From assembly GCF_001457795.1 (NCBI RefSeq), contig NZ_LN898210.1:186001-250000 (forward strand): a DNA stretch of 64,000 nt, read 5' to 3'. The notes below the pieces were generated by a model. The model did not search any database, was not told the origin of the DNA, and worked only from the letters and a program-made list of their open reading frames with translations. Positions 6,937 through 40,640 of this stretch are shown here, piece by piece (the stretch's first letter is position 1; every line of letters starts with the position of its first letter). The position numbers and the translations under genes were made by a program. This stretch comes from Olsenella massiliensis. Its GTDB lineage: Bacteria > Actinomycetota > Coriobacteriia > Coriobacteriales > Atopobiaceae.

Positions 6937-7065
6937 ATGGCGCGGCCGCAGGCCGCTTCGGCTCGCGAGGTCGCCGCCCTTCTGGGTGAGGCGGACGCGG
7001 ACGAGCTGGGCGAGCTGATCGCACGGTATGCCGACGACCCGCGCCGGCAGGTGGCGCGCGCTTAA
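6937..7065 (+). CDS. rnhB: Ribonuclease HII, N-terminal fragment (broken by adapter sequence)
   Basis: ATG 6937 follows a consensus TAAGGAGG. The 42 visible residues (MARPQAASAREVAALL to DDPRRQVARA) match the N-terminal extension common in actinobacterial RNase HII. The frame then hits TAA at 7063-7065, just before Illumina/Nextera adapter sequence. The catalytic DEVGRG-type motif that should follow is missing. The C-terminal half resumes at 7184. The gene is probably intact in the organism: the break coincides with non-genomic sequence. Confidence 0.7.
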   Translation: MARPQAASAREVAALLGEADADELGELIARYADDPRRQVARA

Positions 7066-7094
7066 TGGAACGGGACCCGCGTGCTCCTCCCCCC

Positions 7095-7181
7095 TTTCCC
7101 TACCCGGCGCTCTTCCGATCTGACCTCGAGGGCGCGCCTGCCCCTGTCTCTTATACACATCTAGATGTGTATAAGAGACAG
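7095..7181. other. Sequencing-library contamination: TruSeq-like adapter plus two Tn5 mosaic ends
   Basis: TTTCCCTAC followed by CGCTCTTCCGATCT (ending 7121) is the 3' part of the Illumina read-1 adapter with a few changes. At 7144-7162 lies an exact Nextera mosaic end, CTGTCTCTTATACACATCT, followed at 7163-7181 by its exact reverse complement. The 19-bp mosaic end is an engineered hybrid, so natural Tn5 does not explain it. This is an assembly artefact that replaces part of rnhB. Confidence 0.97.
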
Positions 7182-7788: not shown

Positions 7789-8376
7789 ATGGACGACGCC
7801 AGCTTTGTCTCGAGAATGACCTTCGGCAGGGGGGCTGAGGACCCCATGCCCGCCGACGCAGGGCCTGGTAAGGGCCTCGAGGCGCAGGAGGGGGCCGACG
7901 CCGTCCACGGTGACGTGGGCCCTGAGCATCTTCGCGCGCGCCAGGACGCCTGGTGGTCATCCGTGGACGACTGCTGGGAGCCCAAAGGCACCTCGCCCTA
8001 TGACATGAGCCCGCGCGAGGTGGGCCGCCTCGGCGAGCGCCTTGCCGCCGGCTACCTCGCGCGCCGGGGCTTCGAGCTGCTGGAGCGCAATCTCGTCAAT
8101 GCCGGCGGCGAGGCGGACATCGTCGCCAGGGATGACGATTGCGTCGTCCTCGTGGAGGTCAAGACGCGCGTCGCGCGCCCCGACGACGTTGACGTGGTCC
8201 CCGAGCTGGCCGTCACCAAGGACAAGCGCCGCCGCTATCGCAACATCGCCCTGGCCTACCTCCTCGAGCACGAGAGGACGGAGTGTCTGCGCTTTGACGT
8301 CATCGCCATCAAGGTGGAAGGCGAGCGGCAGGCTCATCTGCGGCACCTCGTCGGCGCTTTCGCCTGGGACCTCTGA
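7789..8376 (+). CDS. YraN family (UPF0102) endonuclease-like protein with N-terminal extension
   Basis: A 195-residue protein. Its C-terminal 120 residues are a standard YraN fold: REVGRLGERLAAGYLARRGF, then the nuclease-like core GGEADIVARDDDCVVLVEVKTR with the D..E.K arrangement of restriction-endonuclease-like folds. The precise cellular role of YraN is not established. ATG 7789 follows AAGGGGGGACCG. This start adds about 70 residues before the usual family start; an internal ATG at MSPREVGRLGE is an alternative but has no clear ribosome site. Its stop overlaps the comM start by one base, indicating translational coupling. Confidence 0.85.
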   Translation: MDDASFVSRMTFGRGAEDPMPADAGPGKGLEAQEGADAVHGDVGPEHLRARQDAWWSSVDDCWEPKGTSPYDMSPREVGRLGERLAAGYLARRGFELLERNLVNAGGEADIVARDDDCVVLVEVKTRVARPDDVDVVPELAVTKDKRRRYRNIALAYLLEHERTECLRFDVIAIKVEGERQAHLRHLVGAFAWDL

Positions 8377-9650
8377 TGGCGGCGTCAAACGTGTCGGTGG
8401 CGTCGGCCTGCCTCTGGGGCGTCGAGGCGCTGCCCATACAGGTCGAAGTGGCCACGTCGGCGGGGCTGCCCGGCATCTCCATCGTGGGGCTCCCGGGGGC
8501 GGGGGTCATGGACGCCCGCTCGCGGGTGCGCTGCGCCCTCAAGTCCTGCGGGTTCAAGATGCCGCCCCTGCACTATACCGTCAACCTCGCGCCTGCTGGC
8601 ATCAGAAAGAACGGCACGGGCTTTGACCTTCCCATCGCCGTGGCCGTCCTCGCCTTGAGCGGGCAGATGTCCACCGAGGGGCTCGACCGCTGCCTCTTCG
8701 TGGGCGAGCTGGGTCTGGCGGGCGAGGTGTGCGAGACGCGCGGCGCGGTGGCCTATCAGATGCTCGCTCGCAGGCTGGGGGCTCAACTCGTGGGCGCCGG
8801 CGGCGCGACGTTGGGTGCTGACGGCTGCGACCTGCGGTCCCTGCGGAGCCTGGCGGACCTTCGCCGGGGCGTGAAGGAGCTGCCTCGCGCGTCCCGCCCC
8901 GCCCCGGGCCTCGCGCCCAGTGGGGACGGTCGTGTCAAGGACCTCGACTTTGTCGACGTGTACGGCCAGGAGGAGGCAAAGAGGGCGCTGGTCATCGCCG
9001 CCGCAGGCAAACACGGCCTGCTCATGGTGGGGTCTCCCGGGGCCGGCAAGACCATGCTGGCCCGGCGCCTCCCCTCCATCCTGCCCCCTCTCACCGACGC
9101 CGAGCTCGAGGAGGTGCTGCTGATGTCGTCGGTGTCAGGCCAGCCCGTCGACGACCTGGCCGTCTCTCGGCGGCGACCCTTCAGGGCGCCGCATCATTCC
9201 GTCTCCCTGGGCGGCCTGGTGGGCGGCGGACGTCCCGTCATACCTGGAGAGATCTCCCTTGCCCATCATGGCGTGCTGTTTCTGGACGAGCTTCCGGAGT
9301 TTGCGACGAACGTCCTGCAGGCCCTGCGCCAGCCCATGGAGGACCGCTGCGTGCGCCTGGTGCGAGTGGACGGCCTCTACAGCTTCCCCTGCGACTTTCA
9401 GCTCGTGGCCGCGGCAAACCCCTGTCCCTGCGGGCATCTGGGAGACCCGGCGCGCAGCTGCAGCTGCGCGCCCGGGCGCGTCCAGGCGTACCAGGGACGC
9501 ATCGGCGGGCCCCCCCTGGACAGGATCGACCTGCACCTTGACGTGAGGCGTCCGCCCTCGCAGCTCGTGGTGAAGGGGGTGCGGGGGGTGGGGTCCGCCC
9601 CTGTCCCCTATACCCCTCCAGATGGGGATAAGCGACAGCCGTGGGCCTGA
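8376..9650 (+). CDS. comM: YifB/ComM family Mg-chelatase-like AAA+ ATPase, truncated by artefact
   Basis: ComM-type helicases promote branch migration of incoming DNA during natural transformation. The N-terminal LonC-like domain (GIVGLPGAGV-type, SRVRCALKSCGF, NLAPAGIRKNGTGFDLP) is followed by the AAA+ core with Walker A GSPGAGKTMLARRLPSILP, PFRAPHHSVS, Walker B GVLFLDELPEF and ANPCPCGHLGDP. After DRIDLHLDVRRPPSQLVV the reading meets a degraded Nextera mosaic-end palindrome at 9601, and the last 17 or so residues plus the stop are artefactual. About 80 C-terminal residues of a normal 500-residue protein are missing. ATG 8376 overlaps the yraN stop. Confidence 0.88.
   Translation: MAASNVSVASACLWGVEALPIQVEVATSAGLPGISIVGLPGAGVMDARSRVRCALKSCGFKMPPLHYTVNLAPAGIRKNGTGFDLPIAVAVLALSGQMSTEGLDRCLFVGELGLAGEVCETRGAVAYQMLARRLGAQLVGAGGATLGADGCDLRSLRSLADLRRGVKELPRASRPAPGLAPSGDGRVKDLDFVDVYGQEEAKRALVIAAAGKHGLLMVGSPGAGKTMLARRLPSILPPLTDAELEEVLLMSSVSGQPVDDLAVSRRRPFRAPHHSVSLGGLVGGGRPVIPGEISLAHHGVLFLDELPEFATNVLQALRQPMEDRCVRLVRVDGLYSFPCDFQLVAAANPCPCGHLGDPARSCSCAPGRVQAYQGRIGGPPLDRIDLHLDVRRPPSQLVVKGVRGVGSAPVPYTPPDGDKRQPWA
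9601..9638. other. Degraded Nextera mosaic-end palindrome (library contamination)
   Basis: These 38 bases align without gaps to two back-to-back 19-bp mosaic ends with 30 matches of 38. All eight differences substitute C or G. It sits exactly where comM ends abnormally and dprA begins mid-gene, so it marks a false join that has lost the comM 3' end and the dprA 5' half. Confidence 0.88.
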
Positions 9651-9747
9651 CTGTCTCGTTACGCCCGACCACCACCATCAGGACGGGGCGCGCATTGCCG
9701 CTCCACACCCCCCGCGCCTGCAGCTCGGTGCAGCCGCGCCCCAGGGT

Positions 9748-10416
9748 GTCGCGGGCGGCAGGACGATCATCGTGGCGGGCACCGGGGCCGACGTCACCTA
9801 TCCGCAGAGCTCGCGCGACATCTTCCTGGAGGCTCCCGACCAGGGCGCCGTCGTCTCCCTGGAGCCCTGGGGCCAGGCACCGCGCCGTTACGCGTTTCCC
9901 AAGAGGAACCGCGTCATCGCCGCCCTGTCGCAGAGCCTGATCATCTGCGAGGCCGGGCTGCGGTCGGGAACCTTCTCGACCGCCGTCGCGGCCGATGACC
10001 TGGGACGCGACCTCTACGTGGTTCCCGGCAGCATCTTCTCGCCGGAGTCCATGGGCGCCAACCGGCTCATCGCCGACGGCGCCTGCGTCATCGCCTCCGA
10101 GATGGACCTCGAGCAGCGCATCGCGCTCGACTACGGCGTCCTCAGAATGGTGCGCGAGGGCGCCCGACGCTCCGAGGGAAGGCTGCTCGCGGCGCTCGTC
10201 AGCGAGCCGACGCGCCCCGACGACCTCGCCCGATACCTCCAGCAGGGCATCGTCCAGGTGCTGGGCGCGCTTGCCGACTATGAGTCGCGCGGCGTGGTGA
10301 GGAGGCTTCCCGACGGCCGCTTCAGCCTGACGGAGACGGCGTACCTCGCGCACGGTACAATGGGGGCGTCACATGACGCAGAGCCGGCAAACGCCGGGGG
10401 CGAGGGGGGCCGCTAG
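9748..10416 (+). CDS. dprA: DNA processing protein DprA, C-terminal part (5' half missing)
   Basis: DprA loads RecA on single-stranded DNA during transformation. Homology begins near AGGRTIIVAGTGADVTYP and continues with AFPKRNRVIAALSQSLIICEAGLRSGTFSTA (the conserved RSG.. loop), VVPGSIFSPESMGANRLIADGA, then a C-terminal winged-helix domain (residues SEGRLLAALVSEPTRPDDLA onward). The Rossmann-fold N-terminal half is absent. Bases 9639-9747 show no clean homology and possible frame errors next to the artefact at 9601. The stop abuts the trmFO GTG. It probably encodes a full DprA in the organism. Confidence 0.85.
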   Translation, partial: VAGGRTIIVAGTGADVTYPQSSRDIFLEAPDQGAVVSLEPWGQAPRRYAFPKRNRVIAALSQSLIICEAGLRSGTFSTAVAADDLGRDLYVVPGSIFSPESMGANRLIADGACVIASEMDLEQRIALDYGVLRMVREGARRSEGRLLAALVSEPTRPDDLARYLQQGIVQVLGALADYESRGVVRRLPDGRFSLTETAYLAHGTMGASHDAEPANAGGEGGR

Positions 10417-38236: not shown

Positions 38237-38958
38237 TCGTTGCCATCGACGGGCCCGCCGGGTCGGGCAAGAGCAGCGTCGCCAGGGCCGTCGCCCGGCG
38301 TCGCGGCCTCATGCTGCTCGACACCGGGGCCATGTATCGCGCCATCACCTGGCGCTGCCTCATGCGCGGCGTCAGCTGCGAGGACGAGGGGGCCGTCTCG
38401 CGCGAGGCGGCGCAGGCCCGGGTGAGCTTTGGCGTGGGCGACGACGGGTCGCAGACCGTCATGCTCGACGGCGACGACGTCACGCGCCAGATTCGCCTGC
38501 CCGAGGTCGATCGCAACGTCTCGGCCGTCTCCTCCTTCAAGGCGGTGCGCGAGGCCATGGTCGCCCAGCAGCGCCAGCTGGCCGCGGCACAGGACGTCAT
38601 CGCCGAGGGACGTGACGTCGGCACGGTGGTCTTCCCGCAGGCGGACGTGAAGGTCTTCCTGACGGCGGACGCCCGCGAGCGCGCCTTCCGCCTGCCTCTT
38701 ATACCCCTGGCGGGGGCATGGTGTCCGCGCCGTCGTGGGGTCCGCGGCGACCGGGTCGCCGGCTTTTGTAAGGGGCGATTCCCCGTGTCTGTTATACCCT
38801 TCTGTAGGTTAAAAAGAGCGAGGCGGGGACGAGCGGGACGCGCCCGGGCGCGGGCCCCGCTGGGGGCGGCCGCCGATGCCGTGCTCATCGACTCCTCCCG
38901 CCTCACGTTTGACGAGGTGGTCGACAGGATCGTACGGATGATGGACAGGGTGGGGTGA
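38233..38958 (+). CDS. cmk: Cytidylate kinase, corrupted in the middle by library artefact
   Basis: Phosphorylates CMP and dCMP. ATG 38233 overlaps the preceding stop. The N-terminal two thirds are normal: IVAIDGPAGSGKSSVARAVA, LLDTGAMYRAITW, VIAEGRDVGTVVFP and KVFLTADARERA. From about 38690 to 38840 the reading passes through two degraded mosaic ends and a piece of gpsA that happen to stay in frame, giving an alien stretch (LPLIPLAGAWCPRR onward). The genuine end APLGAAADAVLIDSS resumes. The LID region with the RD..DS.R motif is lost from the assembly but presumably present in the organism. Confidence 0.85.
   Translation: MIVAIDGPAGSGKSSVARAVARRRGLMLLDTGAMYRAITWRCLMRGVSCEDEGAVSREAAQARVSFGVGDDGSQTVMLDGDDVTRQIRLPEVDRNVSAVSSFKAVREAMVAQQRQLAAAQDVIAEGRDVGTVVFPQADVKVFLTADARERAFRLPLIPLAGAWCPRRRGVRGDRVAGFCKGRFPVSVIPFCRLKRARRGRAGRARARAPLGAAADAVLIDSSRLTFDEVVDRIVRMMDRVG
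38692..38822. other. Chimeric artefact: mosaic end + gpsA fragment + mosaic-end palindrome
   Basis: 38692-38710 matches the Nextera mosaic end at 14 of 19 bases. 38714-38763 copies gpsA 44567-44618 exactly apart from two single-base deletions, and weaker similarity continues to about 38782. 38785-38822 aligns ungapped with the 38-bp mosaic-end palindrome at 26 of 38. This order is what a chimeric tagmentation fragment would leave. Confidence 0.9.
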
Positions 38959-40602: not shown

Positions 40603-40640
40603 CTGGCTCTTATACACAACTAGGTGGGGTTAAGAGGCAA
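40603..40640. other. Degraded Nextera mosaic-end palindrome between ispH and the DUF512 gene
   Basis: 38 bases align ungapped to the mosaic-end palindrome with 30 matches, including an exact CTCTTATACACA core. The following 50 bases are unusually G-rich. The true sequence between ispH and the next gene is therefore uncertain. Confidence 0.9.

Follow-up and report, generated by a model that had tools for sequence, protein, structure and literature searches.

A mate-pair junction adapter between truncated comM and dprA in the Olsenella massiliensis assembly

The analysed window, a 64,000-nucleotide stretch, belongs to a 1.82-Mb, 13-contig assembly related to Olsenella and Parafannyhessea. In it, comM ends abruptly at a 38-bp palindrome, and dprA starts in mid-protein shortly downstream. 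The question is whether these competence genes have decayed in the organism, or whether the sequence between them is false.

The comM–dprA boundary

The reading of the sequence alone had placed the end of ComM at the palindrome and the restart of DprA about 110 bp further on. Both are borne out by tblastn: with the ComM proteins of close relatives the homology stops at 9596–9599, and with their DprA proteins it resumes at 9751 (112 bp after the palindrome), at residue 95–116 of the stop-to-stop frames. The ComM alignments of three more distant relatives extend past 9600, only via adapter and yitT sequence. The locus has the following features.

8376–9600, plus strand: 5' part of comM, with the ChlI and Mg_chelatase domains kept and the C-terminal part missing (tblastn; Pfam PF13541, PF01078).
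9601–9638, no strand: degraded 38-bp mosaic-end palindrome, assigned to the Nextera mate-pair junction adapter (30/38, ungapped; about 20 copies in the genome).
9639–9750, minus strand: displaced fragment, in antisense, of a yitT/DUF2179 gene with the genomic copy at C13:13048–13158, sharp-edged on both sides.
9601–9750, minus strand: 150-base filler resembling one gap-closing mate-pair read, read from 9750 down to 9601 (by its error profile against donor and adapter).
9751–10416, plus strand: 3' part of dprA, with the Rossmann domain from profile position 97 and the winged helix kept and the first ~94 residues missing (tblastn; PF02481, PF17782).

The palindrome at 9601–9638

The segment CTGTCCCCTATACCCCTCCAGATGGGGATAAGCGACAG was compared with the mosaic-end palindrome, CTGTCTCTTATACACATCT followed directly by AGATGTGTATAAGAGACAG. 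When all positions of the window were scored against these 38 bp, position by position, the previously noted match was recovered: 30 of 38 bases are identical without gaps, and the eight mismatches (T>C three times, A>C three times, T>G twice) all change A or T to G or C. Given the base composition of the window, chance would give about 9e-9 matches of 30 or more in 64 kb, and the top background score, taken over the whole window once the four palindromes and the registers overlapping them are set aside, is 21/38. One translation of the palindrome yields the peptide YTHLDVYKRQ, for which a literature search gave no match.

A mobile element of the Tn5 type would hold a transposase or cargo between its inward-facing ends. 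At 9601 there is neither: the two ends abut directly, and the adjoining 112 bp are host yitT.

The filler between the palindrome and dprA

These 112 bp had been left unexplained by the sequence-only reading. The segment 9639–9750 matches C13:13048–13158 in antisense orientation, with 109 of 111 bases identical (98%); the donor lies within an intact yitT/DUF2179 gene (DUF2179 E = 4.9e-7). The similarity has sharp edges at 9639 and 9750, and the continuation of the donor beyond them shows no resemblance to dprA. Two other candidates for this segment were rejected: as noisy native dprA it gave no alignment above shuffles, and as a Nextera or TruSeq adapter tail it gave nothing above the best shuffle; the yitT match then disposed of both.

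Together, the palindrome and the yitT piece make 150 bases, that is, one read length. Read from 9750 to 9601, the filler differs from donor plus adapter at 11 positions: the first base, and ten more within the final 44. All are changes from A/T to G/C. This crowding of differences toward the adapter end looks like the profile of a single read deteriorating toward its end. We looked for a universal 150-base fill, and this sum holds only at 9601; most other sites give 82–144, so filling by single reads may not be general.

Other copies in the window and the genome

Three further palindromes are present in the window, one of them exact.

7065–7181, no strand: break in rnhB, formed by a degraded TruSeq adapter ending at 7121, then 22 unplaced bp, then the palindrome without mismatch (38/38) at 7144–7181.
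38785–38822, no strand: degraded palindrome (26/38) breaking cmk, with a left flank that is a displaced copy of C12:230567–230637.
40603–40640, no strand: degraded palindrome (30/38) between the end of ispH and a PDZ/radical-SAM protein gene; no donor was found for its flanks.

Translated open reading frames at 7065–7181 hold the adapter peptides VSYTHLDVYKRQ and MCIRDR. In the segment 38715–38822, another degraded stretch resembling the mosaic end lies upstream of the cmk palindrome, and there is a displaced DNA copy from 5.8 kb downstream.

Counted around half-site matches, the assembly contains about 20 copies of the palindrome with 23–38 matches, from exact to degraded, each with different flanks. 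The three sites listed above share their nature with 9601, as do over a dozen more outside the window. Seventeen degraded copies carry 79 substitutions between them; 65 of these hit A/T positions, and 54 of those 65 lead to G or C. This bias, being general to the degraded copies, looks like read error. Moreover, 60 of the 79 substitutions equal the adjacent base, against 37.7 expected; such a phasing-like excess suggests, though it does not prove, base-calling errors over mutation.

The assembly also contains the TruSeq adapter. Its exact 20-mer CACGTCTGAACTCCAGTCAC occurs at three places, one of which continues through the index into the P7 tail ATCTCGTATGCCGTCTTCTGCTTG and then into poly-A, and a degraded copy stops 22 bp short of the exact palindrome at 7144. 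The chemistry of the Nextera mate-pair kit has been described (PMC6298255), and the 38-bp palindrome sequence has been given as the mate-pair ring adapter (PMC7357533). Nextera mate-pair fragments are built in this way, with a head-to-head mosaic-end junction inside and TruSeq adapters outside.

Arrangement of the flanks

For 18 palindrome sites, the flanks were used as queries against this genome, and displaced copies were extended. Nine sites have a same-strand donor on the same contig at a distance of 2.4–9.6 kb. If the junction connects the tail of a fragment to its own head, the left flank should come from downstream and the right flank from upstream. All nine sites whose same-strand donor lies within 10 kb show this arrangement, one 23/38 site being left out of the count (chance about 4e-6). 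The exception is C13:764966 (23/38, containing an N), where the left side, C13:764669–764965, is a 297-bp near-exact duplicate of the upstream segment C13:762081–762377, and the circle rule is broken. Four flanks, that of 9601 among them, have donors far off or on other contigs, which is what chimeric circles would give. As the donor at 9601 lies on another contig, the junction there needs a chimeric circle.

These arrangements bear on one alternative, ordinary Nextera paired-end read-through, in which two contig ends, each tailed with a mosaic end, were placed head to head and no mate-pair library was made. All Nextera kits share the mosaic end, and tailed contig ends could abut into the same palindrome. 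However, read-through would not bring TruSeq adapters into the same assembly, and it accounts neither for the yitT piece nor for nine sites whose donors, 2.4–9.6 kb off, follow the circle geometry. We consider it very unlikely. The palindrome is adapter, though not simply the untrimmed paired-end kind; it almost certainly marks where a Nextera mate-pair circle was closed.

The state of comM and dprA

Relatives carry unbroken comM and dprA genes side by side, in the order rnhB-yraN-comM-dprA-trmFO. Comparison with a close relative had been suggested as a check, and RUG161 provides it: its comM and dprA are whole neighbours, and 607 bp separate the positions matching the two break points. Thus about 600 native bases, the comM 3' end and the dprA 5' end, have been replaced by 150. 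A query for the missing residues matches the counterpart in all six relatives, and these residues were not found anywhere in this assembly.

The latter observation is compatible with an artefact atop a genuine deletion, with comM or dprA also truncated in the organism. Yet the retained parts have open frames and strong domain scores, the relatives are intact, and a scaffold gap alone accounts for the absence of the missing parts. Such a double event seems extremely unlikely.

The palindrome had been thought to join comM and dprA falsely. This is correct as far as the artefact is concerned, but the two genes are true neighbours in relatives; the gene order is therefore right, and only the filler between them is false. 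The accompanying claim, that one bad join lies behind both losses and that the genes should not be called degraded, is supported by the adapter and yitT filler and by the intact relatives. Since an adapter read hides about 600 real bases, comM and dprA only look broken, and, by analogy with the relatives, the organism's own copies are probably intact.

Distribution beyond this genome

With at most two mismatches, the palindrome occurs in three of 396 genomes of the class, namely this one and two from other families; at that tolerance, all four genus mates lack it. Exact copies are present in a few IMG/VR contigs and five plasmid records. This scattered occurrence is the distribution of a library artefact. 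The two other class genomes (G127 and G075) have 24 and 8 palindrome places within two mismatches, respectively, and probably share the same artefact. The plasmid records are NZ_CP032357, NZ_MT039157, NZ_KY978628, NZ_MF589339 and NZ_MF918372, with one palindrome at the extreme end of a 78.7-kb record; these are likely adapter remnants, although a real Tn5-based construct may be behind them.

Another alternative is true competence decay, with comM and dprA really truncated around a small mobile element or a degraded Tn5-like end that belongs to the bacterium. The mosaic end is indeed Tn5-derived, and in a genome of 66% GC, changes from A/T to G/C might be taken for amelioration. Nevertheless, copies in one genome span the range from exact to degraded with no transposase, adjoin synthetic TruSeq sequence, and also interrupt the core genes rnhB and cmk, and the four genus mates lack the palindrome. 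This explanation is hardly credible, and a natural Tn5-like inverted end truly situated between decayed comM and dprA in the strain has a practically negligible probability.

Proposed origin of the junction

The palindrome at 9601–9638 is an assembly artefact, not a biological feature. It is almost certainly a Nextera mate-pair junction adapter, carried by an untrimmed junction read that filled the comM–dprA scaffold gap in place of some 600 native bases. The library kit would accordingly be Nextera mate-pair, and a gap-closing step presumably put the read between the two genes. Under this model, Tn5 tagmentation would have added the mosaic end to both ends of each kilobase-size fragment, and upon circularisation the two mosaic ends would have met as the 38-bp palindrome. 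Shearing and TruSeq ligation would then yield the fragment that is sequenced, and untrimmed junction reads would have got into the assembly. At this locus, a read of about 150 bases from a chimeric circle, 112 bases of yitT followed by the palindrome, would have been set in the scaffold gap, taking the place of the comM 3' end and the dprA 5' end.

Implications for the assembly

The evidence supports not inferring competence-gene loss from the comM and dprA truncations, and the artefact reading averts a false call that natural transformation has been lost in this organism. It also calls for caution with the assembly as a whole: this one kind of artefact interrupts rnhB, comM, dprA and cmk, and many joins carry displaced duplicates. 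Despite this, the assembly looks clean by completeness (97%) and contamination (0.26%). Exact adapter screens can miss copies that are degraded by several changes. Given the copies in two other genomes of the class, in IMG/VR contigs and in five plasmid records, a mismatch-tolerant screen for the 38-bp sequence is worthwhile.

Comparison with known systems

Each half of the palindrome is the 19-bp engineered Tn5 mosaic end. Unlike a transposon, the palindrome has its ends head to head with no transposase or cargo, and it is synthetic. The closest counterpart is the Nextera mate-pair junction adapter CTGTCTCTTATACACATCTAGATGTGTATAAGAGACAG: the same sequence is found at 7144–7181 and near-identical ones elsewhere in the assembly, with flanks in circle geometry and TruSeq outer adapters. 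Compared with it, the copy at 9601 differs by eight apparent read errors and in linking DNA of two contigs, as a chimeric circle would.
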